A DNA stretch of 64,000 nucleotides from a virus: positions 1 through 64,000 of the IMG/VR virus record IMGVR_UViG_3300047471_000466, one strand, 5' to 3'. How positions within the stretch are numbered: position 1 is the stretch's first letter; every line of letters starts with the position of its first letter. This document shows positions 2,494 to 51,974 of the stretch, piece after piece. The notes under the pieces are model-generated. The model did not search any database and was not told the origin of the DNA. It saw nothing but the letters and a program-made list of their open reading frames with translations. Both the position numbers and the translations under genes were made by a program.

Positions 2494-2498
2494 AATAA

Positions 2499-2762: not shown

Positions 2763-2780
2763 ATTCTTAGCTTAGGACTA

Positions 2781-2809: not shown

Positions 2810-2825
2810 ATCATCCGGTTAATTG

Positions 2826-4863: not shown

Positions 4864-4894
4864 ACAATAAATATTGCATGATTATGGTCTATAA

Positions 4895-30630: not shown

Positions 30631-30941
30631 AAACATTAAGAGAATATCAAACAGCCGCGTGGCTGACCGCCCTTCCTTCTACGAAGAATGTTAACTATAT
30701 GGCAATGGGGTTGGGTAACGAAGCAGGAGAAGTGTTAGGTAAGGTTAAAAAAATTATTAGAGGCGATTCGAGTTGGAGTACTCAGGACATATCAAAAGAA
30801 ATCGGCGATGTATTGTGGTATTGTGCGGGATTAGCTAGTGTGTTGAATCTTACATTAGAAGGAATCGCCCGAGAAAATATTAACAAATTAAGCGACAGAA
30901 AAGAAAGAGGAGTGATACAAGGTAATGGCGATACTCGATGA
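30627..30941 (+). CDS. MazG-like nucleotide pyrophosphohydrolase
   Basis: Protein of 104 residues. 'GLGNEAGEVLGKVKK' and 'EIGDVLWYCAGLASVLN' are the ExxE and ExxD metal-binding motifs of the MazG/NTP-PPase fold. It can hydrolyse (d)NTPs or lower host ppGpp. Overlaps the ribonucleotide reductase start by 17 bp. Confidence 0.88.
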   Translation: MKTLREYQTAAWLTALPSTKNVNYMAMGLGNEAGEVLGKVKKIIRGDSSWSTQDISKEIGDVLWYCAGLASVLNLTLEGIARENINKLSDRKERGVIQGNGDTR

Positions 30942-32829
30942 AGATTTTCTCAAACCCTACAAAAAGAAAAAAGTTGACTGGGGGTTCAATGGTCTCGGCT
31001 ATGTGGTCTATAAACGAACCTATTCCCGCCTCAAATCCGACGGATCCTCCGAGGAATGGGCTGACACTTTACGACGTTGTGTTGAGGGAGCGCAAGAGAT
31101 CGGTGCTGGATATACTAAGAAGGAAGCCCAAACGTTATACGATCACTTGTTTAACTTGCGGTGCAGTTTTGCTGGACGAATGCTTTGGCAGCTTGGAACG
31201 GATACAATTCATAAGATTGGAGCCTCATCGTTGCTTAACTGCTGGTTTGTCGCCATTAGAGAGCCTAAAGATTTCTGCTTCTTGTTCGACCAACTCATGC
31301 TCGGAGGCGGAGTCGGATTCTCTGTAAGACGGGAAGATATTTATGATTTGCCTAGAGTTAAAACCGGAGTTTGCATCAAGCATGAAAGAACAGCAGATGC
31401 TGACTTCATCGTCCCGGACAGTCGGGAAGGATGGGTCAGTTTGTTGCGAACGATATTGGATTCGTTTTTCGTCACTGGAAAGTCCTTTACGTTTTCGACA
31501 TTGCTTATTAGATCCAAAGGCACCCCTATTAAAGGTTTTGGAGGATTTGCTTCAGGACCCGCGGTGCTGATTGAAGGACTGGAAAAAATATGCAAGGTTC
31601 TTAAAGAGCGTGAAAACAAAAAAATTAGATCAGTGGATGCTCTGGACATTGCTAACATCATCGGCTCCGTGGTGGTTGCAGGGAACGTACGGAGGTCCGC
31701 CGAAATCGCCTTGGGGGATCCTGATGATGTTCTTTTTCTTCGCGCTAAACGTTGGGATCTTGGTAATATCCCTACGTGGCGGGCGATGAGTAACAATTCA
31801 ATTTATGCAGACAACTATAACCACATCATGGAACACGTATGGGACGGGTACTCTGGTAACGGGGAGCCCTACGGATTCTTTAACCTTCCTCTCGCACGGC
31901 GCGTGGGAAGGCTTGGAGAAGATGTTCGGGACAACTGTGAAGGACTCAATCCCTGTGGAGAACAAGCACTGGCGAGTTATGAGTGCTGTAATCTCTCCGA
32001 ATTGTATCTTAACCGAATTGAAACCGAGGAACAATTAATTGAGTGCGCTTCGCTCTTATACAAAACACAGAAAGCGGTCGCAGCGGCATCCTATCACTAT
32101 CCGGAAACTAACAGTGTCGTCCACAAAAACATGCGAATCGGATTGGGAATCACGGGGATTTGTCAAAGCAACAATAAGCTTGACTGGTTATCCAAGTGCT
32201 ATAAAGCCTTACGAAAGTTGGATAAGGAATGGAGCAAAGAGCGAGAATGGAATACGTCGATTAAGCTCACAACGGTTAAACCCTCGGGCACACTATCTCT
32301 GCTTGCCGGTTCAACGCCGGGCGTTCACCCTGCTTATGCTCCTTATTATACTCGTCGTATCCGCCTTTCGACGGACGATAAACTTTGTAATGAGCTTCGT
32401 TCGTTAGGCTACGAACTTGAATACCAAAAGAACCAAGACGGATCTGTGGATCACGCTACTACTGTTGTTGAGTTTCCTTGCACTGCTGGCGATAGCCTCG
32501 TGGCTAAGGATATGACCGCGGTGAAGCAACTAGAGTTAGTAAAGAAAATCCAGACGTTATGGTCAGACTCCGCCGTAAGCGCCACCGTGTATTACAAGAA
32601 AGAAGAACTAACCCCAATACGAGAGTGGCTTAAAGAGAACTACACCAATGGCGTTAAGTCCATTAGTTTCCTGCTTCATGAAGGTCATAACTTTGTTCAA
32701 GCGCCGTATGAAGAAATAACAAAAGAACAATACGAAGAACGAATTAAAAAATTGAAACCAATACAAAACATAACAACCGGTGATGCAATCGTTGCCGAGT
32801 GCGATCAAGGTGTATGCCCGGTACGTTAA
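30925..32829 (+). CDS. Class II (cobalamin-dependent) ribonucleotide reductase
   Basis: Protein of 634 residues, shorter than the ~740 usual for Lactobacillus-type monomeric RTPR. Visible: first redox Cys in 'LLNCWFVA' (C106), 'LMLGGGVGFSV', the active site 'NPCGEQ' (thiyl C344, E346), 'VKPSGTLSLLAGSTPGVHP' and C-terminal shuttle cysteines 'VAECDQGVCPVR'. No second subunit is present. It converts ribonucleotides to deoxyribonucleotides and needs host adenosylcobalamin, so it works with or without oxygen. The shortening probably removes an allosteric part. Confidence 0.9.
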   Translation: MAILDEDFLKPYKKKKVDWGFNGLGYVVYKRTYSRLKSDGSSEEWADTLRRCVEGAQEIGAGYTKKEAQTLYDHLFNLRCSFAGRMLWQLGTDTIHKIGASSLLNCWFVAIREPKDFCFLFDQLMLGGGVGFSVRREDIYDLPRVKTGVCIKHERTADADFIVPDSREGWVSLLRTILDSFFVTGKSFTFSTLLIRSKGTPIKGFGGFASGPAVLIEGLEKICKVLKERENKKIRSVDALDIANIIGSVVVAGNVRRSAEIALGDPDDVLFLRAKRWDLGNIPTWRAMSNNSIYADNYNHIMEHVWDGYSGNGEPYGFFNLPLARRVGRLGEDVRDNCEGLNPCGEQALASYECCNLSELYLNRIETEEQLIECASLLYKTQKAVAAASYHYPETNSVVHKNMRIGLGITGICQSNNKLDWLSKCYKALRKLDKEWSKEREWNTSIKLTTVKPSGTLSLLAGSTPGVHPAYAPYYTRRIRLSTDDKLCNELRSLGYELEYQKNQDGSVDHATTVVEFPCTAGDSLVAKDMTAVKQLELVKKIQTLWSDSAVSATVYYKKEELTPIREWLKENYTNGVKSISFLLHEGHNFVQAPYEEITKEQYEERIKKLKPIQNITTGDAIVAECDQGVCPVR

Positions 32830-32981
32830 CCTCTGCTGTGTTAGATGAAGTTCATGAAGAGCTTAAAAAACATTCGATTCCGCTATCCTACGATGAAGAA
32901 GGCCGACCGTGCTATACTATTCAGTTTGAAGGAACTGAAGAAGAATACAAAATCTTGAAGCAGAAACTTTCTGAACTATGA
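32814..32981 (+). CDS. Small hypothetical protein (55 aa)
   Basis: ATG at 32814, overlapping the reductase C-terminus by 16 bp; an alternative start lies at 32799. Acidic with a short beta segment (CYTIQFEGTEEEYKIL). Next to RNR, but no redoxin motif is visible. Confidence 0.5.
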   Translation: MPGTLTSAVLDEVHEELKKHSIPLSYDEEGRPCYTIQFEGTEEEYKILKQKLSEL

Positions 32982-33637
32982 GATCCTATTTACTTTGGGT
33001 ATCCGCCAATCAAGGCAGGATGACCCCGCTGTTACATTCCGCTGATCGCCTTTATGATATCGCCATTCATGATTATGGTGACTGGACGGAAGAAGACGTT
33101 AGAAAGAATTGCGAAGCTGAGTACTGGCTTCCTTTTCCACGAAGAGAGAAGTTTGAAGTCGCCGCAACGATGGTGAACGTTCTTCCTTCCTATCGATACT
33201 ACGCATTTCTTGACGACGATCTCACTGTTGACGCGGTCATTCTTAACCGGCTTTTTCTTGTCGGCGATTCTCTAAATTTGGATCTTTATCAACCGGCGCT
33301 GACGAAAGAAAGTTTTTCCAGCCACCAACATCTGTATCAAAATAATTACGGCGGACCCATTCGTCGTGCCCCATTTGTTGAGATTATGTGCCCGTTCATG
33401 AGCCGGAAGATGGTTGAGCAAGCTGCTCCTACCTTCGATCTTAACCAATCGGCGTGGGGGCTGGACATACATATTTGGCCGAAGTTGGCTGTGGATTGCT
33501 ATGTTGTAGACGCCCTCCCAGTCGCCCACATGCGACCTCCAGCAAGGCGGGACAGGGTACAACGAAACGGATTAACCCCTCATCAGGAATATGAGATAAT
33601 CAGAAAGATGAATTATGATGGAAACAGACCTTGGTAA
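32978..33637 (+). CDS. DUF707-like glycosyltransferase
   Basis: Protein of 219 residues. 'YYAFLDDDLTVDAVILNRLF', 'LDLYQPALTKESFSSHQHLYQ', 'RRAPFVEIMCPFMSRKM' and 'SAWGLDIHIWPKL' match the blocks of the DUF707 family, best known in plants. DDD is the likely metal/nucleotide-sugar site. Next to a GT75-like gene. Confidence 0.75.
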   Translation: MRSYLLWVSANQGRMTPLLHSADRLYDIAIHDYGDWTEEDVRKNCEAEYWLPFPRREKFEVAATMVNVLPSYRYYAFLDDDLTVDAVILNRLFLVGDSLNLDLYQPALTKESFSSHQHLYQNNYGGPIRRAPFVEIMCPFMSRKMVEQAAPTFDLNQSAWGLDIHIWPKLAVDCYVVDALPVAHMRPPARRDRVQRNGLTPHQEYEIIRKMNYDGNRPW

Positions 33638-34448
33638 AGCAGTCGTTGTTGTCGCCTGGCATAACGAAGAACAACTAGCAGCGTTTAAACGAGAGTGGTA
33701 TATCAAGCAGGACGACCCTGTGATATTCCAGCAGGACAAACATAAGGAAGGCTGCGCCGTCACTAAGAACAAAGGAATAAAGAAAGCCTTTGATTCCGGA
33801 GCCGAAGTCATTTGTGTTTTGGATGACGACTGCTTTCCTGATTCTAGCAATCTTCTTTGGCCGGGCAACATTCGCTATTTCATCCAGCAACACGTTGAAG
33901 CCTTGCGGCCTCAAGCCGTGCAGCGGGTAATCTCTACGACCATACCCAATTCCCGTGGGACTCCTTATCGCCATACAAGCATGAAGATGCCGGTCGCTGC
34001 CTCCATGGGGTTCTGGTCGGGCTATCCGGACTTCGACGCTATCGCAGCCTTGCAGCTAGGAGAAACTGCGAAAGTGAAATTCAACCAACAAGCGATCTTT
34101 GGATCCTTCTTTCCATTGTGCGGAATGAACTTCGCCTTTAGGCGGGGTTGGGTGGATTGCGCTTTGCAGGTTGAGGGATGCAACCGGTGGGAGGATATTT
34201 TCGGAGGTTGGGTTTTTCAGAAGATCGCGTATGAACAGGGTTGTTGTTTTAACTTGAACGGTCCCGTAGTTCGCCATTCCCGGCAATCCAACGTCTGGCA
34301 TAACCTGAGAGAGGAAGCTAAGTATATCGAACAGAACGAAACGCTTTGGGAAATTATCGCTAAAGCTCCTTATGGGTTGTCTGCTAATTCGTTGCGAAAA
34401 CTTTATATTGAACCTATGTTGAAAAAAGGAGGTGATAAGAATGGCTGA
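33615..34448 (+). CDS. GT75-like reversibly glycosylated polypeptide / UDP-arabinose mutase-like
   Basis: Protein of 277 residues. 'VICVLDDDCFPDS' is the DDD motif; 'VAASMGFWSGYPDFDAIAAL', 'FPLCGMNFAFRR' and 'EDIFGGWVFQKIA' fit the conserved blocks of plant RGP/UAM proteins, which interconvert UDP-arabinopyranose and UDP-arabinofuranose. The arginine autoglycosylated in plant RGPs cannot be confirmed here. It overlaps the DUF707-like gene by 23 bp; the two probably work together. Confidence 0.72.
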   Translation: MMETDLGKAVVVVAWHNEEQLAAFKREWYIKQDDPVIFQQDKHKEGCAVTKNKGIKKAFDSGAEVICVLDDDCFPDSSNLLWPGNIRYFIQQHVEALRPQAVQRVISTTIPNSRGTPYRHTSMKMPVAASMGFWSGYPDFDAIAALQLGETAKVKFNQQAIFGSFFPLCGMNFAFRRGWVDCALQVEGCNRWEDIFGGWVFQKIAYEQGCCFNLNGPVVRHSRQSNVWHNLREEAKYIEQNETLWEIIAKAPYGLSANSLRKLYIEPMLKKGGDKNG

Positions 34449-34587
34449 GAAAAAAGATAAGAAATGGATCCAGAAAGCGGTGAATCCTGATCATAAAGGA
34501 TACTGCACCCCTATGAGTAAAGCTACTTGTACGCCGCGGCGAAAAGCTCTGGCGAGGACGTTTAAGAAGATGGCGAAGGACCGTTAG
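34441..34587 (+). CDS. Small basic phage protein (48 aa)
   Basis: Preceded by AAGGAGGTGATAAG, one of the best ribosome-binding sites in the window. Lys/Arg-rich with 'WIQKAVNPDHKGYCTPMSK' and 'CTPRRKALARTFKKMA'. Possibly DNA-binding or structural. Last gene of the plus operon, 3 bp before the end of a minus-strand gene. Confidence 0.65.
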   Translation: MAEKKDKKWIQKAVNPDHKGYCTPMSKATCTPRRKALARTFKKMAKDR

Positions 34588-34590
34588 AGT

Positions 34591-35154
34591 TTAGATATCT
34601 TCCAACGTGTAGATAGTTTTAACTTTAAGTGTGTTCGCGGGGTTGCCCCCAGTCCAAGAAGTCGGATTGGAAGAAAAGGTTAGTAACTGTAGCGGTTGGT
34701 TGTTGTATATTGAAGCCACCCCTGGCTGTTCCGTTACCCCATAGCCGTGGGTAGAGAAAGCTTGTATCCACGGCCTGAGAACAAGAAGATTAGAAGTGCC
34801 GAACGTGTTACCAAAAAAATCAGTTAGATTTGTTACGCTTTCGGCGGCGAGATCGTAGCAAGCGGTGGAGGTAGTGGTATAAATATCGTCGCCATCAACC
34901 CATCCACTATACGCTCCTCCTTCAAAATGACTGGTCAGTATTACTTGAAGAATAGAAATCCATTTGTTTAGCCCGGGAGCCGCGATAAGATTTACGGGAG
35001 TACTCGGTAGCGTTTTGATTTGTGCGTCTGTTAGTATCGTGGTGGAGGTCAGTATACCAGAACTATCGTTTCCGCCGTCTTCTACTACTTCTAAAACCGG
35101 AAGCGTTTCTCCATTAACAACAACAAAAGCGGTACCAGGTAAATGAGCAGCCAT
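34591..35154 (-). CDS. Tail/adhesin protein with shared N-terminal anchor
   Basis: About 187 residues from the ATG at 35154. The first ~35 residues (MAAHLPGTAFVVVNGETLPV...) are nearly the same as in the protein at 35987-36925, while the C-terminal part differs. This is how phages attach different tips to one docking site. The start was chosen because conservation begins at MAA and a matching promoter lies directly upstream. Confidence 0.65.
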   Translation of the reverse strand: MAAHLPGTAFVVVNGETLPVLEVVEDGGNDSSGILTSTTILTDAQIKTLPSTPVNLIAAPGLNKWISILQVILTSHFEGGAYSGWVDGDDIYTTTSTACYDLAAESVTNLTDFFGNTFGTSNLLVLRPWIQAFSTHGYGVTEQPGVASIYNNQPLQLLTFSSNPTSWTGGNPANTLKVKTIYTLEDI

Positions 35155-35159
35155 ACGAA

Positions 35160-35187
35160 AGAATACTAGATCTTTATGATTTGACAA
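35160..35187 (-). promoter_or_regulatory. Sigma70-like promoter, leaderless
   Basis: Minus strand: TTGTCA (35182-35187), 16-bp spacer, TATTCT (35160-35165); ATG begins 5 nt after the -10, so the transcript would start at or next to the start codon. Near-identical to 36931-36958. Confidence 0.65.
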
Positions 35188-35220
35188 GGCGCGGACTTTT
35201 AAAAAATTGGCGAAGAGTCG

Positions 35221-35985
35221 CTAGGAAAAACAACGTCCTAAAAACGAAATGAAATCGTCTCCCAGCGCCGCTGTGAAATTCGATGGGTCGCCATGATCTC
35301 CTGTCGTTAATATGCAGGTTGCTTCAGTCGCATGTCCCGTTGCCAGAGTTACTAAAGCTTGTCCGTGCTGATTCACTGGAACTGTTGCGTCGGCTAATGA
35401 ACCCATGCAGCGTAATCTGAGACCATTAAATGCGGAAGCTGCGAACTGCATCGGATCGCGGCCTGTTGTGCCTGTGGGGTAACTTGGAAACGCGATGTTT
35501 ATTGAAGCAGTCAGATTGGCGTTCCCGTGCGCCACAGAAAGATCACATACCGGAAAGATACCGTGCCAGCCCTTAACAGTTACGCCTGGAAATCCTTGGG
35601 TCGCCTTCATTAGGCCCAGCGGTCCACCTGCACTTCCGCCCGTCAGTACAACTTCAGTAACCCCGTAATTCGCCACGAGATACGCCACAAGATTTTCACA
35701 AGCGGTCTGCGCGGTCGGGTTATCCCATTGATTGGGTCCCCCCATCATACAGGCCGCATTCAAGTATCTATTCTCTATAGCTTTCGACCAGTAGTAGTGA
35801 TTGAGAGTGGGAATTGTAAGACTGAATTCATTCATGTTACTGACGAACTGCCCCAAACCGTGGCACCATACCAGAGCCGTACCAGCGATGCGGTTTGTAG
35901 GAACCATGATCCTGGCCAAGTCTCCTGAAATTGTGGTATCAACTATTGAGTAGCTACCAGTTATAGAGCCGCCCGACGATTTCAT
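35221..35985 (-). CDS. Alpha/beta hydrolase (virion-associated esterase?)
   Basis: Protein of 254 residues with the hydrolase pattern: oxyanion region 'LVWCHGLGQF', nucleophile elbow 'LTGGSAGGPLG' (Ser), acid near 'MGSLADATVPV' and His in 'TGDHGDPSNF'. Flanked by two adhesin genes on the same strand, so it may deacylate host surface glycans during adsorption. No signal peptide. The function is inferred from fold and context. Confidence 0.75.
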   Translation of the reverse strand: MKSSGGSITGSYSIVDTTISGDLARIMVPTNRIAGTALVWCHGLGQFVSNMNEFSLTIPTLNHYYWSKAIENRYLNAACMMGGPNQWDNPTAQTACENLVAYLVANYGVTEVVLTGGSAGGPLGLMKATQGFPGVTVKGWHGIFPVCDLSVAHGNANLTASINIAFPSYPTGTTGRDPMQFAASAFNGLRLRCMGSLADATVPVNQHGQALVTLATGHATEATCILTTGDHGDPSNFTAALGDDFISFLGRCFS

Positions 35986-35986
35986 T

Positions 35987-36925
35987 TTAGTTGTTTATGA
36001 ACGCGAACAATCCTGAATTTCCAGAGCCACCCAAAAAGGATCCGCCCAAAAAGTTTACTCCGGAATCGCCCCATTCATTCCAACTTATGTAATGATACCC
36101 CAATCCGGGGGTTCCTTTATAATTGGCGGTTAATGGTATAATTGAAGTAGCTGCTGCGCTCATAATAGCCATGATTCCTGAAAAAGAGGTAGTTGTGTCT
36201 ATTCCTATACCTGACCCAACTGAGCCTGCAGATACCACGCTAGTCATTAGTGTGGCTTCGACCATGTCGGTAGCATATCCTGTTACATATTCAACCTTGT
36301 TACCAGAAATTCCGTGAGCCTGTCGAATCGCACTTAGTTCATAGGCCCAACTTGCGGCGGTATCAATGACTCCTAAAGCACGAGTTACTTGGTTATAGGC
36401 GTTCCCAACAAATCGTTTCCCTCCCACATTAGTAACTGTTCCTCCTTCGCTATCTTCTGTGACATTAGTCCCACTCGCACGAACCCACCCAATCCATAAT
36501 TTTGTATGGTCGCTGGCAAGAACAGTAACACCATCCTGTGTTCCTAAAGCATCTGCGCGGGTTGTGTCGTTCGTCCACGCCGATGATAGGCTTAACGCTG
36601 TTGCGGCGGAGTTAACAAAAACGTCATAGTTTTTTCCACTTGTGATCGTAAGCGAAAGCGAGATTTCCGAAAATGTCTTAGCCTGCCAAGCCGTTCCATT
36701 CCAAGTGTTAACATTGTTGTGGATGAAGGGCGTGTAATAAAGAGTTCCTTGATTCGTTCGATCAACTGTTGAGATAGCAACACCTGATTCCGTTGTTAAC
36801 CTACCTCCCGGAATATTGAAAACAACGTTAGCGGTTCCGCTTCCGCCGTCTTCTACTACTTCTAAAAATGGGAGGGTTTGCCCGTTTACAACAACAAATG
36901 CAGTTCCCGGTAAGTTAGCGGCCAT
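35987..36925 (-). CDS. Tail fibre/adhesin protein
   Basis: About 312 residues from ATG 36925. N-terminal anchor 'MAANLPGTAFVVVNGQTLPF' is shared with 34591-35154. The body 'GGRLTTESGVAISTVDRTNQ', 'LYYTPFIHNNVNTWNGT', 'YDVFVNSAATALSLS', 'KRFVGNAYNQVTR' is a pattern I know from phage tail-fibre middle domains. Gly/Ser-rich C-terminus. Upstream in-frame codons lie in the promoter and are unlikely to be translated. Confidence 0.78.
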   Translation of the reverse strand: MAANLPGTAFVVVNGQTLPFLEVVEDGGSGTANVVFNIPGGRLTTESGVAISTVDRTNQGTLYYTPFIHNNVNTWNGTAWQAKTFSEISLSLTITSGKNYDVFVNSAATALSLSSAWTNDTTRADALGTQDGVTVLASDHTKLWIGWVRASGTNVTEDSEGGTVTNVGGKRFVGNAYNQVTRALGVIDTAASWAYELSAIRQAHGISGNKVEYVTGYATDMVEATLMTSVVSAGSVGSGIGIDTTTSFSGIMAIMSAAATSIIPLTANYKGTPGLGYHYISWNEWGDSGVNFLGGSFLGGSGNSGLFAFINN

Positions 36926-36930
36926 GAGAC

Positions 36931-36958
36931 ATAATACTAAGTCTTTATGATTTGACAA
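36931..36958 (-). promoter_or_regulatory. Sigma70-like promoter, leaderless
   Basis: Minus strand: TTGTCA (36953-36958), 16-bp spacer, TATTAT (36931-36936); ATG 5 nt downstream. Same spacing as the copy at 35160-35187, with the conserved block extending upstream (TTTGACAAGGCGCG on plus). Confidence 0.7.
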
Positions 36959-36986
36959 GGCGCGAACTTTTGTTTTAGATTTTGGT

Positions 36987-37289
36987 ATGAAGAAAATCAT
37001 ACTAGCGGTATTTGCCGCACTGTTAATGGGAAGTGCCATCGCCAAGTCTGATGTTGTTATCGGATACGATGGTGACTGTCAGGTGTACTTCAGACCCGAC
37101 TACGGATACTTCGAGGTCTGTGAACAACAGGCTCCCGTCTTTTTAGGCGCGGAGTTCGACGTTCATACGTTTCGCCGAGGATTCCGGGAAGGACCTAACT
37201 TCCACGAACACTTCGGTCGGCACTGGTCTGGGCCCCAGACTAGATATGAAACCAGGGAAACCATTACCGAACATCGCAGGGGCCGGTAA
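36987..37289 (+). CDS. Secreted protein with Sec signal peptide
   Basis: Protein of 100 residues. MKKIILAVFAALLMGSAIAK is a textbook signal peptide (cleavage after AIA). The mature part has two cysteines and many aromatics, and a His/Arg-rich end. Divergent from the adhesin gene and closed by a terminator. Function unknown; export suggests the periplasm or infected-cell surface. Confidence 0.7.
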   Translation: MKKIILAVFAALLMGSAIAKSDVVIGYDGDCQVYFRPDYGYFEVCEQQAPVFLGAEFDVHTFRRGFREGPNFHEHFGRHWSGPQTRYETRETITEHRRGR

Positions 37290-37296
37290 ATAACCT

Positions 37297-37334
37297 AATG
37301 CGCGTAGTTGACATATTTGTCGATTACGCGCATT
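37297..37334 (+). terminator. Intrinsic terminator-like hairpin
   Basis: Perfect 10-bp stem AATGCGCGTA/TACGCGCATT with an 18-nt loop, then TTCTC. It follows the secreted-protein gene. Confidence 0.6.
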
Positions 37335-37341
37335 TTCTCAT

Positions 37342-37509
37342 ATGAATCTAATACCACTAATTCTACAAATCATCGCGCTGATCCTGTTGTTCATGGCTTC
37401 GATAGGAAAGAGTAATATCTTTTCTGGTAAGATGCAGACATTCCCGTTAGGGATGTTCTTCTGGTTGGCGAGTCTGATGGTTACCCTTGGAATCCACGAA
37501 GCGCACTAA
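37342..37509 (+). CDS. Two-TM membrane protein (55 aa)
   Basis: MNLIPLILQIIALILLFMAS then a polar turn and a second hydrophobic helix. TAATG overlap with the next gene. Small membrane protein of unknown role. Confidence 0.6.
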   Translation: MNLIPLILQIIALILLFMASIGKSNIFSGKMQTFPLGMFFWLASLMVTLGIHEAH

Positions 37510-37700
37510 TGCCCGCTAAATCTGTAGCCCAGCGTCGTCTCATGGCCGCTGCTGAACATGGGGCCAGCTTTCCCATGGCCAAGCAGATTAGGAAATCCAT
37601 GACTCATAAGCAGATGCACGATTTCGCCTCAACCCCAGAACAAGGGTTACCTAGAAAAAAGAAGAAACGCGGCCCGCTCTCGGATTACGAAATGCCGTGA
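37509..37700 (+). CDS. DUF3008-like small protein
   Basis: Protein of 63 residues. 'MPAKSVAQRRLMAAAEHGAS' and 'MTHKQMHDFASTPEQGLPRK' follow the pattern of short DUF3008-type proteins in many phages. Basic; function unknown. Converges on the GT4-like gene with a 16-bp overlap. Confidence 0.7.
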   Translation: MPAKSVAQRRLMAAAEHGASFPMAKQIRKSMTHKQMHDFASTPEQGLPRKKKKRGPLSDYEMP

Positions 37701-38701
37701 GCTAGGAAGTGTTTCCAAAAAGGAAATCCTCGCTCGTTGTGTTTGTTTAAAGCCCTCTCGCCTCTGTGGCCTTGATTCTCCAGCAATAGTCTAATTCCTA
37801 CTTCTGCCACTTCGACCACATTGTCGGGTTCTGCCTTCCATTGCTCGGGGGCCCATCGTATAACCGGAGATACGACAGAAGGAACGCCTACTGAAATCCC
37901 GTCTGCAGTAATCATATTAAAAGATTCAGTGTAGGAGAGTTGGAGTAAGAGATCCATTTTGCCAATAAGTTTTATGAATCGATCCCAGCTATCCCAATCA
38001 TGTTTGATTAGTTCAACTGAGGGCAATCCTTCCACCATTTCTTCTATGGCGGGCAGAGTTGTAGATTTACAGCCGTCGCCTCCGGTAGACATATGGAGTC
38101 TTAGCGGAACGTTTAACTGATTCTGTATCACCAGTGCTGCCGCAGCCGCGGTCATAAAATTTTTCTCAGGCCTGATCGCGCCGAAAGCCCCGATATTCAG
38201 AACGTCCGAATTCCATCGTTTTCCGTGGATGTGGCCGATAGGATACAGGTTTGGCAGTAAAACACAGTTCTCGTTGTAGACAGCCCGGAACCAATGAACA
38301 AACGAGTAGTTGTTTCCACCTACCATAAAGTTATCCACGGTCTCAGAGAATTCTGCATATAGGCGAAATAGCTTAATCGCGTTTGGATCCGCCTGTAGGA
38401 AGCCGATGTTCGAATGGGACAGAACCGCGAACTTAGTATGATGAAAGTGCCTGATAAGGCTTTTAAGATCGTGGAGAGTTAACCAGGGAGCGGAGATTAC
38501 TACGTGGGTAAAAGGACGTAGTTGATGTCTCGCCTTATCCAGGATTTTTACCACATCCACATTATGTCTTACGGCAAAAGCTTCCGCGTCTATTCCTTTC
38601 CCCCGCAGGTATTTCGCCGTGGTGTACCCGGCTACGTTTAATCCTACACAACTAGATCGAACCCAGTGAGCGAAGTCTTTGAAGAATATGGCAAGTCTCA
38701 T
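37685..38701 (-). CDS. GT4-like glycosyltransferase
   Basis: Protein of 338 residues. 'VAGYTTAKYLRGKGIDAEAF' is the acceptor-side start, 'NIGAFGAIRPEKNFMTAAAAAL' the interdomain strand, and 'LLLQLSYTESFNMITADGISVGVPSVVSPVI' the conserved E-rich donor-binding motif of GT-B family 4. Alone on the minus strand. Adds to the many sugar-transfer genes here. Confidence 0.8.
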   Translation of the reverse strand: MRLAIFFKDFAHWVRSSCVGLNVAGYTTAKYLRGKGIDAEAFAVRHNVDVVKILDKARHQLRPFTHVVISAPWLTLHDLKSLIRHFHHTKFAVLSHSNIGFLQADPNAIKLFRLYAEFSETVDNFMVGGNNYSFVHWFRAVYNENCVLLPNLYPIGHIHGKRWNSDVLNIGAFGAIRPEKNFMTAAAAALVIQNQLNVPLRLHMSTGGDGCKSTTLPAIEEMVEGLPSVELIKHDWDSWDRFIKLIGKMDLLLQLSYTESFNMITADGISVGVPSVVSPVIRWAPEQWKAEPDNVVEVAEVGIRLLLENQGHRGERALNKHNERGFPFWKHFLAHGIS

Positions 38702-39108
38702 GTGGTTTTAGTATAGCATGAAATTTCTAGAAAAAAATTTTTCTCTGTCGGTGATATACGCTCACACGCGGGACAGTATGGGGACGTGACGCGATAGGGG
38801 CGGGGCGGTCTGATGCAGCCCTAGTAGTGCAGACACGATCTGCACCCAGTAAAGGGTAAACGGATGAAGTCAGTAGGTAGTAGTAGGTAGTGAGATTTCT
38901 CTGGGGAATGTCAGACGCCTTGACAGTGTTGCGAGTAGCCTTGGCACAGTGTAGTAGATGCAATCACTACATTCGGAAGGACGCAATAGCGAGTAGCTCA
39001 ACAAGCGTAAGCAAACCTGCACAGCCCTCACTGAACGACGAATAGACCAAACTTCAAGCCAGAAAAAGCCAGTGAACCTGTATCACTGAAGCACTGCTGC
39101 ACTGACCT
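38702..39108. other. Non-coding stretch at the start of the hairpin-rich island
   Basis: About 400 bp without a convincing ORF. It contains an AT palindrome (AGAAAAAAATTTTTCT near 38729), a perfect GTGCAGA-cacga-TCTGCAC hairpin (38827-38845) and a GTAGT/ACTAC hairpin near 38951, plus repeated CACTGA words. The mixture suggests promoters and RNA structure, but none can be fixed. Confidence 0.5.
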
Positions 39109-39195
39109 ATGCATAACATACATAGGTTAGACAACATAGCGGAAGTTAGACATGTAGTTGAAGCTGTGCTGCTCCCCAAGCGGGGACAGTCAGCC

Positions 39196-39459
39196 ATGAC
39201 TGCAATCTATCGAAACGGGAGAACATTCGGAAAAGTGCCGATGCGCGCCTTCACAGGTAGCAAAGGTCGTTGCCGTGAGGCTTCACGTTGGGAATTCAAT
39301 CCCCAAACGTTGAAGGAAGCGGAAGTTTTCCGGGGCAAGCGCGAAGATCGTAGTAAGCACATTACTGCATGGTCACCTTGCCCAACTGCGCCAATCGAAA
39401 CTCCAATGAGTTTTTACCAGCGCAATATGTTCAAACGTTTCCACCGTGTAGCCTCGTAA
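39196..39459 (+). CDS. Hypothetical basic protein in the island
   Basis: About 87 residues from the ATG at 39196 (MTAIYRNGRTFGKVPMRAFT). An upstream start at 39109 is possible, but that stretch holds hairpins (CCTATG/CATAGG, TCCCC/GGGGA). The chosen ATG itself lies in a perfect CAGTCA-GCCA-TGACTG hairpin (39187-39202). Basic, no known domain. Confidence 0.45.
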   Translation: MTAIYRNGRTFGKVPMRAFTGSKGRCREASRWEFNPQTLKEAEVFRGKREDRSKHITAWSPCPTAPIETPMSFYQRNMFKRFHRVAS

Positions 39460-39795
39460 GAGGCTGCATAGGTCAGTGTAGTAATGCTTATTACAACTTT
39501 GCGATATTGCTTCAATGTCGCATTGCACCAGTGATTCAAGGTCGCATCCCTGAATTATTATGCGTTGGCTATAACAACGCTTTAAGGGTGAATGAGCATC
39601 ACAACACTATGGGCACGCTAGGTGTTTAGTGTGACAGGCACGTTATGTGTCTGTCTGTGATTCTGCTAGGTCATATTGTTGCATTGGTGCAATGTCGCAA
39701 GGCTACATAGGTGAATAGTTTAATTCAACTAATGTTTTGTGGCGTTTGCGTGGTGCAACGGACTTGGCAGATAACAGACAGCGAAAGGAACAACT
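39450..39795 (+). ncRNA. Hairpin-rich leader before the 156-aa gene
   Basis: About 340 bp without a gene. Perfect hairpins: an 8-bp stem (one wobble) around 39450-39469 with a GTAA tetraloop, GTAAT-GCTT-ATTAC (39480-39493), GCGTTG/CAACGC near 39562-39580 and TTGCA-TTGG-TGCAA near 39679-39692. The strand is taken from flanking plus-strand genes. Confidence 0.5.
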
Positions 39796-40266
39796 ATGGA
39801 CAACCAAATTGTTCCCGCAAACTCTGTTACGTTGGCAGAGATTGATGAGTCGGAAGACTTGGGTCAATACAACAAGCCAACTGTGTCTGCGTTCATCGCA
39901 GCACAGCACGGCATCGTATTGTCCAAGGGCAATCGCAATCTCAAGTTTATTGTGGCTTCACTTGTGAAGTCCGGTAAAACTGAGGCGGCTGCAAAAGACC
40001 TCGTTAAACTCGGTCGCAAAGCGCATGATAAGCATGTTGCCGGATATTACAAAAATATCCGTGCGGTCAATGCTGTCATTGCGGCAGACCCCGATTATCG
40101 CCAGTCCATGAAAGTCTGGCGCAATAAAAAGGGTGATCTTTGTGCCAACACGATGTACCGCAAAGCGGGTGTCGTGTCCTCTGCAACGTATGAGGCAATG
40201 CGGGACGAATTGGCTGCGCTCAAGGCAATTGTGAAAACATTGCCTGCTGCGCCAGTCAAGGCGTAA
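39796..40266 (+). CDS. Hypothetical protein (156 aa) flanked by structured RNAs
   Basis: Clear coding sequence, MDNQIVPANSVTLAEIDESE..., with a basic, helical middle ('NRNLKFIVASLVKSGKTEAA', 'LVKLGRKAHDKHVAGYYKNI') that could bind nucleic acid. No family recognised. It lies between two hairpin-rich non-coding stretches and ends just before a strong hairpin. An RNA partner role is possible but only suggested by position. Confidence 0.75.
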   Translation: MDNQIVPANSVTLAEIDESEDLGQYNKPTVSAFIAAQHGIVLSKGNRNLKFIVASLVKSGKTEAAAKDLVKLGRKAHDKHVAGYYKNIRAVNAVIAADPDYRQSMKVWRNKKGDLCANTMYRKAGVVSSATYEAMRDELAALKAIVKTLPAAPVKA

Positions 40267-40275
40267 ATCGGTGTC

Positions 40276-40306
40276 TGCTGCAATGCTCAATGGTAGCATT
40301 GCAGCA
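40276..40306 (+). terminator. 12-bp hairpin with CAATGGT loop
   Basis: Perfect stem TGCTGCAATGCT/AGCATTGCAGCA, loop CAATGGT, 9 bp after the 156-aa gene. The same loop and stem length recur at 43824-43854 with a different stem sequence. No T-run. Confidence 0.6.
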
Positions 40307-40312
40307 GCAATC

Positions 40313-41545
40313 GCTTTATGCGAATGAAAAGTCTGAGGCTTTGGCCTTTGCCGCCAATATAAGACTCAGCATAGCGTTCGCATAAAGCACAACTGTGGAA
40401 AAGCTAATCGTCCAAATAATCCGACGACTTGACGCTCCATGCTATGGCGATTTGCCGCTAACTGCGGCTACTCTCGCCAATATCTTGGAGCAGGAGTTGC
40501 TGGATTATACTGTCGCCCAAGAGGCGAAACAATAGTTGCGGTGTCGGCTGCTCCTTAGGGAGCAGCTTGACCGCTATTACGCGGAATAGTTAGGCGACTT
40601 ATCGCCTTGTGCGGCGCATGGAACGCCTGTGGGAAAGGGAGACTTGTCTCCATGAAACACATCCATGCCACAAGCCACAGTGTAACTCAGGCAGGTTCTT
40701 CAGCACCGTAAACCTTGAAAGTGAAAAACGGGCTTATTGTCGTAATGCGACACTGCTGCCTTGCAACAGGGTTCCGTGAAAAATTGGCACGGCGGAAAGC
40801 CAATACCGATGTTGCAAGGTAGCCAGTCGCATTGTGAAATGCCAGCGGCGGGCTAATAGCCGTGTGTCGAAAGATACCAAACAGAAGCAATGCGGCCTTC
40901 CGTCTCCTAAGGTGAGAGTGAGACACATATAGAACTGGGCGCACGTTGCGTCCACAAGCAGGTTCGTATGGTAAGAGTAACGGGCGGCGGCCATAGCTGC
41001 GTAAGGTTTCCCGACGCCTAGACGAATAGATGAAGACCTGACAACAGCGTGTAGGAGCGATTGAGGTTGATAGTTCCAATCAGCATTGCTCTGAATCTAA
41101 AACGAACGTGCTATCTCTGCGGCAGTCTCTTTTTGGTGATGGAGCCGTGGGTATGAAACCAACGCAGGTTGGGAAGCTGCGATATCAAGGTTCCGCAAAT
41201 AGAACGATGCAATAATAGCATTGCGACGTGCTGCGGCGTGGATGGTTGCTATTCTATTCCACGCCGTAGTGGTCGCGGTGTAAAGAAGTTAACGGGTAAA
41301 GTCCACCCTTTTGTGGTTCCGTGCTTGCTCCTCTGCGACGTGAATGTTGCTACGATAATGCGCATCGTGTTGCGACACTGCAGCATTGTTTCAAGGTGCC
41401 ATAATAAATTCAGGCAAGGCAGTCTGATACCTGTGAGCAATGCTGCATAGCCGCAATACTCCCGATTGCAGCACAATCGGTGTCGGTATTGCAAGGCTGA
41501 CCTAACAGCTACAATCAAATGGGCATAGCGGAAGTGTAGTTCCGC
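40313..41545 (+). ncRNA. Candidate giant structured non-coding RNA (~1.2 kb)
   Basis: No convincing ORF in any frame over about 1.2 kb, but many perfect compact hairpins: GCTTTATGCGAA/TTCGCATAAAGC (40313/40377); GGCGA/TCGCC around GCCGC/GCGGC (40446-40478); TCGCC-CAAGA-GGCGA (40513); GCTGCTCC-TTAG-GGAGCAGC (40547); CCGC/GCGG (40571); AGGCGA-CTTA-TCGCCT (40592); GGAGA-CTTG-TCTCC (40638) inside GCATGGA/TCCATGC; CGGCGTGGA/TCCACGCCG (41234/41258); GCAATAC/GTATTGC around CCGATT/AATCGG (41453-41492); GCGGAA/TTCCGC (41528). Such density over ~1 kb in a phage recalls the ornate large RNA classes (GOLLD, ROOL). Class not confirmed; ends approximate; strand taken from flanking genes. Confidence 0.7.
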
Positions 41546-41615
41546 CTTGGTGTTTGCGACACACGCGGCATTACGACGGTAGTGCTGCGGAGCCGCAATT
41601 CTGCGGAAAAAGGGG

Positions 41616-41801
41616 GTGAGTTATATAAAAGCTGAAGTAAAAAACAATACTTTGTTTATTGAGATTCCACTCCAAACACCCACGGCCAGCGGTTCGGGCA
41701 AGAATCTTGTGATTGCCTCGACTCACGGAATCACGGTGTCTGGAGCATCTTTCAATGGCAATCCCGTCAAAATCGGGCTAAATGCCTTTGTGAAGGCGTA
41801 A
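41616..41801 (+). CDS. Small beta-strand phage protein (61 aa)
   Basis: GTG start (or near). MSYIKAEVKNNTLFIEIPLQ, then 'SGKNLVIASTHGITVSGASF'. The pattern 'KAEVK.N.L.IEI..SGK.LV.ASTHG' recalls unnamed small proteins in many phages. Directly downstream of the giant RNA candidate and closed by a hairpin at 41812. Confidence 0.65.
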   Translation: MSYIKAEVKNNTLFIEIPLQTPTASGSGKNLVIASTHGITVSGASFNGNPVKIGLNAFVKA

Positions 41802-41811
41802 TTCTCGAAGT

Positions 41812-41835
41812 CGTGGCTCTGGCAACAGAGCCACG
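41812..41835 (+). terminator. Hairpin after the 61-aa gene
   Basis: Perfect 9-bp stem CGTGGCTCT/AGAGCCACG with loop GGCAAC, 10 bp past the stop. No T-run. Confidence 0.55.
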
Positions 41836-41939
41836 CATTCGGTAATTGTAGTGAGTTCGATTGTGGACTTAAAATTACCAAGCCACGCATGGTAAACAAA
41901 CCGTGCTGTTTGCAATCCTGTAAGCCGTGGCTAAATACT

Positions 41940-42058
41940 TTGTGTGAGTGAGATAATCAGGTGAGGTATGCGCTACCAAAATACTGACGATGGAAAAGCT
42001 GGTAAAGGATGAGGAGCGCAGGTTAATCCTTGGCTTGAATCCCTACCCACTCACACAA
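41940..42058 (+). ncRNA. Structured RNA closed by an 11-bp stem
   Basis: TTGTGTGAGTG (41940-41950) pairs perfectly with CACTCACACAA (42048-42058). Inside are GGTA-TGCGC-TACC and AGGAT/ATCCT hairpins, and two GCGC loops that could kiss. No ORF. It resembles a small ncRNA or a 5' leader of the 42100 gene; I do not recognise a riboswitch class. Confidence 0.55.
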
Positions 42059-42099
42059 TTCAATTTGCCGCGTGGCGGCTAACATGTAGGATAAATATT

Positions 42100-42273
42100 A
42101 TGAGTCCAATCATTCTTTTCCTTCGTGTTTTCGGGAAGAAAGACCCAACTCAGACGACGGGTGATTTCAAGAATGAGTGCGGAAACCTCACTCAGGACAG
42201 GACATTCGTTGCTGAAGTGGAAGCTTTCGCCAAGAAAACTGGCATTATTCCGGAAACCGAAGTCATCAGCTAA
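42100..42273 (+). CDS. Small hypothetical protein (57 aa)
   Basis: MSPIILFLRVFGKKDPTQTT... with an acidic helical end. Follows the structured RNA at 41940-42058 and is closed by a hairpin at 42281. Function unknown. Confidence 0.6.
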   Translation: MSPIILFLRVFGKKDPTQTTGDFKNECGNLTQDRTFVAEVEAFAKKTGIIPETEVIS

Positions 42274-42280
42274 TCGCTGT

Positions 42281-42304
42281 CGCAGCCTTGGAAACAGGGC
42301 TGCG
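42281..42304 (+). terminator. Hairpin CGCAGCC/GGCTGCG
   Basis: Perfect 7-bp stem with a 10-nt loop, 7 bp after the 57-aa gene. No T-run. Confidence 0.45.
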
Positions 42305-42319
42305 CAAGCGGTGAGTTTT

Positions 42320-42502
42320 ATGAACGCGTATTACTACACGAACGTCAAAAACGTTCCCTTTTTAATGATGATAGTCTACGCCAAGGATATTGAAGAGGCC
42401 GATTGGTTTTTTCAAAAACAAACAGGCGTCAATCCGAATAAGAATTCATTTATCACTTGTCGAATTGAGTTTAATTCGACTCCAATTGTATGGAAAAAAT
42501 AA
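42320..42502 (+). CDS. Small hypothetical protein (60 aa)
   Basis: ATG at 42320 after GGTGA. MNAYYYTNVKNVPFLMMIVY followed by an alpha/beta pattern. A longer upstream frame would cross the 42281 hairpin and is unlikely. Unknown function. Confidence 0.55.
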   Translation: MNAYYYTNVKNVPFLMMIVYAKDIEEADWFFQKQTGVNPNKNSFITCRIEFNSTPIVWKK

Positions 42503-42669
42503 CCCTGAATAACAGGCTCGTATTACGCGGCCCTTTGGGCTGGCTCTACGAGCCTCAATGGGAAGGCCAAGACGGGCTTTGCGCAAGCTGCGGTAAGCCG
42601 CTGTCAGAGCATCCTGATTGGATTTTGCCTGATCGTGTGGTTAAATACTGCAATGTTTCCAAATCTTGA
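42490..42669 (+). CDS. Small protein with CASCGK motif (59 aa)
   Basis: MEKITLNNRLVLRGPLGWLY, then 'GLCASCGKPLSEHPDWIL', a possible half zinc site. Overlaps the previous gene by 13 bp. Unknown function. Confidence 0.55.
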   Translation: MEKITLNNRLVLRGPLGWLYEPQWEGQDGLCASCGKPLSEHPDWILPDRVVKYCNVSKS

Positions 42670-42745
42670 TGCTTTAGTTATTCCAGTCGGCCTGGTTATT
42701 GTCGTAATTCTTTTTGTGCATGCCATTCTGGCATCGCTTCCGTGA
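42653..42745 (+). CDS. Single-TM micropeptide (30 aa)
   Basis: MFPNLDALVIPVGLVIVVIL and a short end. Overlaps the previous gene by 17 bp. Translation not certain. Confidence 0.35.
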   Translation: MFPNLDALVIPVGLVIVVILFVHAILASLP

Positions 42746-42748
42746 AAT

Positions 42749-42922
42749 ATGGTTAACGAACATCCAACTATGGAAGAAGACATTCAAAGCCGTGTAGCGG
42801 CTGATGAAGAAATCACCAAGTTGCAGCGAGTCAAGGAGAATATTCTGAAAACTGCGCTTGATGATGATACCAAATGGCGATGGATTCGTCGAATAGACGC
42901 TGAAATCGCCAAACGATTATGA
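42749..42922 (+). CDS. Small helical protein (57 aa)
   Basis: MVNEHPTMEEDIQSRVAADE and a Lys/Arg-rich amphipathic end. ATGA overlap with the next gene. Unknown function. Confidence 0.5.
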   Translation: MVNEHPTMEEDIQSRVAADEEITKLQRVKENILKTALDDDTKWRWIRRIDAEIAKRL

Positions 42923-43113
42923 TAGAAATAATCCGAAAAGACGGCTCGTGGATAAAGTTCTCATGTCCTGAGTGGAACTATCTGTCCCCTGCTGCTCAGA
43001 AAGACATTATCAGGAAGTTACAAGAAAATCCGGTTAACATTATCTGGCCTCGGCCTGAGACTTGGCATAAACGAGAAATTGTTCGATCACACGGCGAACT
43101 GAAAACTCCGTGA
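42919..43113 (+). CDS. Small hypothetical protein (64 aa)
   Basis: MIEIIRKDGSWIKFSCPEWN... Overlaps the previous stop. No family recognised. Confidence 0.55.
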   Translation: MIEIIRKDGSWIKFSCPEWNYLSPAAQKDIIRKLQENPVNIIWPRPETWHKREIVRSHGELKTP

Positions 43114-43178
43114 TGGCGGTAGGCTTGCCATTTGTTTCTAGCAAGCTGCGCTAGCTTACCGAGATTCGTGTGAGCCCC

Positions 43179-43243
43179 GCTCCCCTGCGGCCATGTCCCG
43201 ATAGGGTTTGTTACATGGCCGCAGCGAGCAGGGTTTTCCTGCT
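43179..43243 (+). promoter_or_regulatory. Mutually exclusive hairpins upstream of a ribosome-binding site
   Basis: CTGCGGCCATG (43185-43195) pairs with CATGGCCGCAG (43214-43224), extended by GCTC/GAGC. A second hairpin AGCAGG/CCTGCT (43227-43243) uses the same GAGC bases, so both cannot be complete together. The ribosome-binding site AAAGGGGGTGA of the 43262 gene follows at once. The layout is like a riboswitch or attenuator. The rest of 43114-43261 has smaller hairpins and no gene. Confidence 0.5.
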
Positions 43244-43261
43244 GAAAGGGGGTGAAAATAA

Positions 43262-43639
43262 ATGGTTACAGTTAGAATACGCCGATCTAAATGGTCGCGT
43301 GGTAACTGCGATTCCAGCAATATGTTGTTGGTTAAAGACGGAAATCCCAGACTAAACAAGTCCTTTAGATCAGGAAATATGTGTTGTTTGGGTTTCGCTT
43401 GTCTGGCTTTAGGGGCCAAGAAAAAAGACATTCTTGACCAAGCTATGCCGGACATGGTCGCCGACGACGAGGCAAGAGAAAAGTTAAAGGGATTGGTGAA
43501 TAGTCACGGCGACAGCAGCCAGTTTGCGTTGGATGCTGCAGAAATAAACGATAATGATGAGATTTCAGATCGTGAAAGAGAGCGCGAGTTGCGGCAGTTA
43601 GCCAAAGAAAATGGGTTTAGGTTCGTGTTTGTTCCGTAA
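43262..43639 (+). CDS. Hypothetical protein (125 aa)
   Basis: Strong AAGGGGGTGA before ATG. Basic start (MVTVRIRRSKWSRGNCDSSN), a Cys/hydrophobic stretch 'MCCLGFACLALGAKKK' and an acidic helical end. No family recognised. Closed by a hairpin at 43651. Confidence 0.65.
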   Translation: MVTVRIRRSKWSRGNCDSSNMLLVKDGNPRLNKSFRSGNMCCLGFACLALGAKKKDILDQAMPDMVADDEAREKLKGLVNSHGDSSQFALDAAEINDNDEISDRERERELRQLAKENGFRFVFVP

Positions 43640-43650
43640 GTCTTGCTTCC

Positions 43651-43677
43651 CTGCTACCGTGGTTTTCACGGTAGCAG
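43651..43677 (+). terminator. Perfect 11-bp hairpin
   Basis: CTGCTACCGTG/CACGGTAGCAG with loop GTTTT, 12 bp after the 125-aa gene. Strong stem, no T-run. Confidence 0.6.
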
Positions 43678-43702
43678 TCAGCAACGTTTACCGTTGCGAA
43701 CT

Positions 43703-43813
43703 ATGAAACAACACATAAAGACAGTAATCGCTGAACTGCGAAATCCAAACAGATCGTTGCGGCACAATCTCGCAATTATCCGTTGGAGAATGCAGTATAA
43801 CTACTGGCAATAA
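43703..43813 (+). CDS. Micropeptide (36 aa)
   Basis: MKQHIKTVIAELRNPNRSLR and an aromatic end. Lies between two strong hairpins, so it may be its own small unit. Unknown. Confidence 0.35.
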   Translation: MKQHIKTVIAELRNPNRSLRHNLAIIRWRMQYNYWQ

Positions 43814-43816
43814 GTG

Positions 43817-43868
43817 AATAAGTGGGGCTGAGAATCAATGGTATTCTCAGCCCCATCCTTCACTTATT
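43817..43868 (+). terminator. Long two-tier hairpin with CAATGGT loop
   Basis: Inner stem GGGGCTGAGAAT/ATTCTCAGCCCC (12 bp, loop CAATGGT) and outer AATAAGT/ACTTATT (7 bp). Shares loop and stem length with 40276-40306. Confidence 0.65.
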
Positions 43869-43882
43869 TTCGTGGGTGAACG

Positions 43883-44137
43883 GTGAAAAACCTAGTAGCT
43901 AATGCGGAACGGAAGCTTGGTGAGCAACCCGTTAGTTCTAAAACACCAAAGCCCATGCACGGTTCTACGCTGTGCATGGGCAACCAATTTATGAAGGTAA
44001 AACTAACAGACAGAGTCGTAGACGTTGAAGTCGTTAGGATGAACACTCGCACAATGTGGGTTCGTCTTCCCGATGGAAACGTTATTAAACGTCATAAGCG
44101 CAAACATGTGGTGACAGAAAATGAAGGACAATCGTGA
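43883..44137 (+). CDS. Hypothetical protein (start uncertain)
   Basis: GTG at 43883 with GGGTGA 5 nt upstream gives 84 residues. A perfect 10-bp hairpin, GCCCATGCAC/GTGCATGGGC (43951-43981), lies in this frame, and a later ATG at 43991 gives a more protein-like MKVKLTDRVVDVEVVRMNTR product. The conserved part is probably the last ~48 residues. Function unknown. Confidence 0.5.
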   Translation: MKNLVANAERKLGEQPVSSKTPKPMHGSTLCMGNQFMKVKLTDRVVDVEVVRMNTRTMWVRLPDGNVIKRHKRKHVVTENEGQS

Positions 44138-44567
44138 ACCAGAGTCGAATCCTTTAACAAAAAAAGAATTCGATGAAATTCTCAGGAGAACGGATGGCTT
44201 CGAGTCTTTCGTTCCTACTTGTGAAGATATCGTAAGATATCGTTCTCAAGCTACTCGGCTACTATTAAAGTTGCCTTGTTGGGGTTGTCCGGTGGAAGCC
44301 CAAATCACAAAAGTTGTGAATGGAGGAGAATACTTCGTGTATTCAATCCTTGGTATGACAAACCACTGGGCTTGTATCCGCGAGGTAGAAATTTTATACA
44401 TGTTTCCGCCTCAAGAGTTAACGGAACGAATTCGTGATTTAGAAACACCCGTAGTAACTGTGGGAGAAGTGAAGAAAGTCCTAAAGAAAGCGGATAAAAC
44501 TAACAAGCAAATAGGTAAAACATTAAAAGAGTTATTTGATGAACAAACCAAGAAACAGAAACGTTAA
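44121..44567 (+). CDS. Hypothetical protein (148 aa)
   Basis: Central Cys pair 'LPCWGCPVEAQ', then beta strands and a Lys-rich C-terminal helix. Overlaps the previous gene by 17 bp and the next by 29 bp. No family recognised. Confidence 0.65.
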   Translation: MKDNREPESNPLTKKEFDEILRRTDGFESFVPTCEDIVRYRSQATRLLLKLPCWGCPVEAQITKVVNGGEYFVYSILGMTNHWACIREVEILYMFPPQELTERIRDLETPVVTVGEVKKVLKKADKTNKQIGKTLKELFDEQTKKQKR

Positions 44568-51209: not shown

Positions 51210-51974
51210 ATGGTCCCACATATAAAAACAGATGAAGCGTTGACGGCGATCATTGGTAGCAAGGCGTATACAATTACGTCTGATAATCCGTCCTATACGC
51301 AGGTATGGGATGCGATTGCTAACGACGAGCCGGATTACGAGATCGTCGAATTGTTCAATCAAGCGACGGCAGTTAAGCGGTATTTCCAAGGTGACGGCAT
51401 CGAGGTTACCGACGATAACGAACTGTTCTTCAACGGAGAACGGATTCATAACGTAGCGGTAGATCGAATCTTCGACTTTATGTCGAAAGGTCTGCCGTAT
51501 CAGCCGTTGCTGAAGTTCCTGCAACGGTTGCAGGCTAATCCGAGTCGAACCTCGGTAGAGGAATTGTATAAGTTCCTTGAGCATAAAGCGTTGCCTATCA
51601 CTGAGGACGGGTTCGTTCTCGGTTACAAAGGCGTAACCAGCGATTACAAAGATGTTCACACGAACACTTTCAACAACCGTCCAGGTGCGAAGAACTCGAT
51701 GCCTCGGAATGGTGTTGACGATAATCGCCGTAATCATTGCTCGTCTGGATTCCATATCGGTTCGCTGGAATACGCGACCCATTGGGGTAACCGAGTAGTG
51801 ATTGTGAAATTCGATCCCGCCGATGCAGTGTCGGTTCCAGAGGATTCGGATTGTCAGAAACTCCGAGTATGTAGGTATGAAGTGGTGTGTGATTACGAGG
51901 GACCATTGCCTCGTCCGTTGCACTCCTCTAACGACCCATACGAGGACGACATCGACCACTCGTTCGACTACTAA
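51210..51974 (+). CDS. rIIB: rIIB-like protein
   Basis: Protein of 254 residues. The block 'LYKFLEHKALPITEDGFVLG' and 'YKGVTSDYKDVHTNTF', then 'NHCSSGFHIGSLEYA', 'VIVKFDPADAVSVPEDSDCQ' and 'KLRVCRYEV' is a clear match to the rIIB family signature. Probably acts with rIIA. Followed by a strong terminator-like hairpin. Confidence 0.9.
   Translation: MVPHIKTDEALTAIIGSKAYTITSDNPSYTQVWDAIANDEPDYEIVELFNQATAVKRYFQGDGIEVTDDNELFFNGERIHNVAVDRIFDFMSKGLPYQPLLKFLQRLQANPSRTSVEELYKFLEHKALPITEDGFVLGYKGVTSDYKDVHTNTFNNRPGAKNSMPRNGVDDNRRNHCSSGFHIGSLEYATHWGNRVVIVKFDPADAVSVPEDSDCQKLRVCRYEVVCDYEGPLPRPLHSSNDPYEDDIDHSFDY

Follow-up and report, generated by a model that had tools for sequence, protein, structure and literature searches.

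The genome of a 79-kb dsDNA phage contains a tract of about 5 kb whose RNA copy is predicted to fold as densely as the genome of the RNA phage MS2, and this folding does not stop at the borders of the genes. The occurrence of MS2-grade folding through protein-coding sequence, associated with one gene family in four DNA phages, is a more interesting fact than the reading of this locus as a non-coding RNA. The window analysed here comprises 64,000 nt of a virus record of 79,247 bases, and all positions given below refer to this window unless a relative is named. In the original prediction, positions 40313-41545 were described as a giant, hairpin-rich non-coding RNA of a phage. Our results support the part of this claim that concerns a strongly folded RNA of the + strand, but not the existence of a discrete RNA of the GOLLD or ROOL kind, and the interval itself, although strongly folded, is an arbitrary slice of a tract (~39.0-44.5 kb) that also holds genes. 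The explanation that we favour, to which we would give an even chance of being correct, is that the tract corresponds to a rightward, polycistronic and hyper-structured early transcript, of which ~5 kb, genes and spacers alike, has been selected for dense folding. The folding excess, its passage through genes at synonymous sites, the preference for the + strand and the recurrence in three phages were all computed in this work.

In sliding windows, the folding excess is ~0 across 38.1-39.0 kb, climbs sharply from ~39,000-39,100 and continues to ~44,500, and the ~5 kb thus delimited include both spacers and genes. When the whole window was scanned in 300-nt steps, 10 of the 15 most over-stable windows on the + strand fell within 39.3-45.0 kb. 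Perfect stems (at least 6 bp with at least 3 G-C pairs, and loops of 3-8 nt) number 9.6 per kb in 39.0-44.5 kb, whereas the remainder of that strand has 4.7 per kb. Against dinucleotide shuffles, the region 40267-41615 (MFE of -541.8 kcal/mol; -544.8 kcal/mol for 40270-41620) has a z of -13.8 on the + strand and -4.4 on the - strand, and the region 38702-39795, which lies 5' of a gene for a 156-aa protein, has values of -12.2 and -3.9, respectively. The same test gave z = -9.5 for this gene (39796-40266) and -6.4 for the spacer 41802-42099. The hairpins of this locus are real and far above chance expectation. The excess over composition-matched nulls is seen in coding as well as non-coding sequence, and persists when the protein and the codon counts are held constant; in these two respects the tract behaves like a globally structured (GORS-like) mRNA. 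For comparison with other phages a yardstick was employed, in which the folding energy of 240-nt windows beyond a regression-based expectation is averaged over 1.2 kb and given as kcal/mol per 240 nt, and for which the peaks at tRNA clusters serve as positive controls. By this measure the window peaks at -26 and MS2 at -23 (genome mean -21), followed by N4 at -18.6 (a tRNA cluster), SPO1 at ~-14 (first 30 kb), lambda at ~-12 and -15 on its two strands, Mu at -11.5, and phi29 and the T7 early region at ~-7. The energy of 40267-41615, -0.40 kcal/mol/nt, is the same as that of MS2.

The tract is preceded by the AT-rich, non-structured start of an intergenic space (38702..39000), which follows the divergent gene 37685-38701 on the - strand. 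A promoter likely lies within this segment, with AAAAAAATTTTT at ~38730 as its candidate; a sigma-70-like site was looked for on the + strand here and was not found. The divergent gene gave weak glycosyltransferase matches when it was searched, and genes that resemble glycosyltransferases or methyltransferases are, from by-eye reading of the translations, more numerous in 12115-16082 and 29323-38701 than is usual for a single phage. From 39001 to 39795 the + strand forms a structured 5' untranslated segment, where codon scores mark the frames 39109-39459 and 39369-39629 as non-coding and the module fold contains a long nested hairpin (module m3, 39498-39705). The gene for the 156-aa protein (39796..40266, +), with the RBS AAAGGAAC, is recognized by its homologues and by its codon score of 0.134, which exceeds the median of the large genes. 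It is followed by a structured, mostly non-coding spacer (40267..41615, +), which encloses the interval of the original prediction. Directly 3' of the gene there is a perfect 13-bp hairpin with the loop CAATGGT (40275..40307, +), and the same loop is present on a different stem, of 14 bp, at 43822-43856 (+). In the MFE structure, the predicted interval starts with a long + strand stem, GCTTTATGCGAATG / GCGTTCGCATAAAGC, around an insert of ~50 nt (40313..40388), and then a multi-branched domain (40389..40682, +) is closed by the stem ACTGTGG/CCACAGT.

The stems quoted in the original prediction are all present, among them the GGAGA/TCTCC hairpin, the hairpin GGCTGCTCC-TTAG-GGAGCAGCT at 40546-40567, and both of its nested examples, viz. 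GGCGA..TCGCC at 40450 with GCCGC/GCGGC inside, and GCAATAC..GTATTGC enclosing CCGATTG/CAATCGG at 41453-41492. Its further statement, that no believable protein is encoded over 40313-41545, holds for most of the interval based on codon statistics, Pfam and PHROGs, which reveal no gene in 40536-41615. However, the frame 40395-40535 (46 aa), within the multi-branched domain, is borderline in that it passes a weak codon-usage test and is accepted by a simple gene caller; it is possibly a real small gene and, due to this, strictly non-coding sequence may start only at 40536. Farther along the spacer, a nested hairpin of ~26 bp (module m1, 40740..40842, +) and two long hairpins (41378..41505, +) are found, the latter consisting of module m2 and of 41446-41505, where the second nested example is located. 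The left arm of m1 is 74% identical to 41365-41410 (direct repeat D2), and although the partner arm there differs, it is again complementary. This diverged m1/m2 repeat and the shared CAATGGT loop are compatible with recognition by a protein or an RNA, which each of them weakly suggests. Beyond the spacer lies a gene for a 61-aa protein (41616..41801, +) with the strong RBS GGGGGTGAG, which is supported by codon statistics and by homologues; its relatives (52-56% identity) are found, next to unrelated neighbours, in phages that have otherwise no relationship to this one (L003, L004), and no Pfam or PHROG family was matched. The structured spacer after it (41802..42099, +) contains a hairpin with a GCAA tetraloop (41812-41835) and a unit whose closing stem is TTGTGTGAGTG/CACTCACACAA. 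Based on the sliding folding excess, the tract then continues on the + strand through small genes and spacers (42100..44567), and the synonymous-shuffle z values of these genes are -4.2 (42100-42273), -3.5 (42749-42922), -1.5 (43883-44137) and -5.0 (44121-44567).

The folding peak of the tract, and of the genome, sits on the mRNA of the 156-aa gene. When codons were moved among synonymous positions, leaving the protein and the codon counts unchanged, the natural mRNA was 48 kcal/mol below the mean of the permutations (z = -9.9), and none of the 60 permutations matched it. The homologues of this gene in three related phages, designated G010, G006 and G007, gave synonymous z values of -5.5, -5.3 and -2.4, respectively, whereas 14 other genes of the window located outside the tract have a mean of ~-1 (range +1.2 to -4.4, mostly +1 to -2.5). 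The most extreme of these 14 is the gene at the RIIB position (51210-51974; z = -4.4), which is also a second folding peak (-16 on the + strand versus -6 on the - strand); its orthologous place in G007 (~54.5-55.2 kb) is again a peak, making it another candidate for a structured mRNA. The 156-aa protein is modelled as mostly helical with low confidence (pLDDT 66), and neither a protein-family match nor, in a fold search of the model, a usable structural match was obtained for it.

The related phages are uncultured and were identified by terminase and capsid alignments. Of these, G005 shows 87% terminase identity but its record does not reach the locus, and the capsid identities of the other three to the window phage are ~62% (G006), ~68% (G007) and ~83% (G010). 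Around the locus, G010 and the window are colinear, and all three encode homologues of the 156-aa protein with 23-36% identity. Among all 1.2-kb stretches of the genome, the one with the strongest folding falls on this homologue in G010 and in G006, and in G007 it is ~0.5 kb downstream, on the same flank. The flanking spacers of the four phages, in contrast, are not alignable and share no sequence above chance, and their lengths in the window, G010, G007 and G006 are 1349, ~290, 511 and ~80 nt downstream of the gene, and 1094, ~740, 536 and 1295 nt upstream of it. In blastn searches, the region matched nothing among 50,697 phage records and only short chance matches were obtained in the record of each relative. 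One such match is a 13-mer, TGTGCGGCGCATG, common to the window and G007, whose local alignment score was equalled in 11 of 100 shuffles; a 21-mer match in G005 falls in a coding region and was treated as chance, and G010 shows only weak, scattered 64-nt similarity to the locus. Neither its terminase nor its capsid protein revealed a relative of the window phage among the 50,697 records. With the 156-aa gene, the RIIA-like gene and the gene at 53543 as queries, no close relatives or only a widespread family were obtained, relatives found by RNR lack both the 156-aa gene and the tract, and a genome-collection search revealed no host or prophage copies. As the spacers are unalignable and differ in length (~80-1349 nt), the selected property appears to be folding rather than one fold; however, a very fast-evolving specific fold would also look unalignable, and hence selection for one fold may instead be operating. 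The property of folding is retained while the sequence turns over, and the detailed fold is probably not retained either. Two other observations were made in relatives. Apparent tRNA genes, seen by eye, are present in G007 (L137) at ~3500-3780, shortly downstream of the homologous locus, whereas the window lacks them. In the more distant relative G017 (L221), a palindrome, GAATCAGAACNTTCTGATTC, is repeated with small variations between small genes at 2100-6300, and it is probably an operator or terminator element.

If discrete ornate non-coding RNAs of a new family, one or several, were processed from the spacers, chiefly 40267-41615, and acted as RNA assemblies in the manner of GOLLD and ROOL, then the genes would be passengers. 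The 1.35 kb without convincing genes, its z of -13.8 and MS2-like energy per nt, the closed multi-branched domains, and the m1/m2 direct repeat, which keeps its pairing despite different partner sequences, are all in accordance with this, and with GOLLD and ROOL the locus shares its phage origin, its length and an elaborate predicted fold. However, the whole 64 kb contains no match at the gathering score of any Rfam family, and when the threshold was relaxed to E <= 5, 40200-41700 gave chance matches only, and none to GOLLD (RF02032; the model covers the conserved 3' half), ROOL or OLE. The original prediction, too, could match no class. The locus also differs from these RNAs in showing no visible conserved 3' domain, and no tRNA genes are found in the 64-kb window, although GOLLD and ROOL frequently, but not obligatorily, occur near tRNA islands (PMC12286853). 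Additionally, instead of forming a discrete non-coding unit, the tract spans genes and peaks in one of them, a conserved protein gene, and the loci of the relatives keep the folding but not the length, the sequence or a recognizable common fold. We therefore consider such an RNA unlikely. A type III toxin-antitoxin, a retron, a TnpB/IscB-associated RNA and a self-splicing intron were also considered and dropped, as no protein or Rfam support was found for them.

The same stability could also originate at the DNA level, from a palindrome-rich replication origin, a recombination or protein-binding region, or an ssDNA intermediate. Both strands are indeed stable (~-19 versus -26 at the peak), and the O gene of lambda, in which the replication origin of that phage is located, has a similar but much shorter signature with a synonymous z of -6.5 and no strand preference, so that a part of the signal can also be produced by DNA palindromes. 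However, across the four tracts the coding strand is more stable by a mean of 3.6 kcal/mol (Wilcoxon p = 1e-4 when pooled; 0.2-0.9 outside), a modest difference that in G006 alone is almost nil (-0.4); such a preference favours RNA, with its G-U pairs, and is not expected of pure DNA palindromes. The ~5 kb length, with several genes, is also at odds with this explanation, and only short imperfect repeats, without iterons or repeated palindromes, were found at the locus; a DNA-level origin is thus quite unlikely. Coat proteins are known to package the genomes of RNA phages, and a protein, with the 156-aa product as the most obvious candidate, may similarly bind or package the RNA to form an RNA-protein particle. 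The MS2-like folding density, the constant position of the 156-aa family in or beside the peak of the tract, and the CAATGGT loop on unrelated stems, a candidate binding site, could be explained in this manner. However, two equal loops are weak evidence, and the missing fold and family matches of the 156-aa protein (pLDDT 66) mean that it bears no sign of an RNA-binding or capsid fold, and we regard this proposal as very doubtful. An artefact of composition, or chance, is scarcely credible: while the first-stage hairpins were chosen by eye, this interpretation is rejected by the dinucleotide and synonymous-codon nulls, by the genome-wide ranking and by the recurrence in relatives.

In RNA viruses, global folding of RNA with selection at synonymous sites is a known phenomenon and has been linked to packaging, replication and evasion. 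MS2 and other ssRNA phages, as well as positive-strand RNA viruses, resemble the tract in that the excess covers coding and non-coding sequence, is comparable per nt and is seen at synonymous sites, and in that both polarities are stable with the sense strand preferred. The tract differs from MS2 in being a limited part of a 79-kb dsDNA genome, and replicase, coat and maturation genes were not found at the locus. In T7, the RNase III sites are structured intercistronic hairpins of the early operon, and the hairpins between small early genes of a polycistronic transcript are thus a point of similarity; however, the first 8 kb of T7, inclusive of the early genes, average only -1 per 240 nt, with no synonymous-site excess in the T7 genes. 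In N4, synonymous-site folding excess was seen in all five genes sampled (z of -3.2 to -5.7), but there it is genome-wide and at a lower level, whereas in the window phage it is concentrated in one tract. The genome-wide excess of N4 (NC_008720, 1-50000) is present on both strands with a mean of -7, unlike lambda, T7 and phi29. Since folding pervades the genes of N4, phage mRNAs of the hyper-folded kind may occur more often than has been supposed.

According to the explanation that we favour, viz. a hyper-structured early transcript, transcription would start in the AT-rich gap at ~38.7-39.0 kb and proceed rightward, probably early in infection, to yield what may be a single RNA. Selection would favour dense hairpins and multi-branched domains across the ~5 kb, in the long folded untranslated spacers as well as in the genes, and the outcome would be a compact, nuclease-resistant and long-lived RNA rather than one specific three-dimensional machine. 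Such an RNA could be shielded from RNases of the host or from RNA-directed defences, and the access of ribosomes to it could be restricted; the folding would probably serve to protect or compact the RNA. It is also conceivable, but improbable, that this is a dsDNA phage lineage with a self-folding coding RNA resembling that of RNA phages, in which an early transcript compacted from end to end and a co-evolving small protein form a protected RNA or an RNA-protein particle. For other candidates of giant non-coding RNAs in phages, it should be checked whether the folding continues through the neighbouring genes. If a DNA phage indeed combines MS2-strength folding in one delimited tract with a link to a single gene family and with turnover of the sequence, it would provide a test system for the selection that acts on folding when the RNA is a messenger only.
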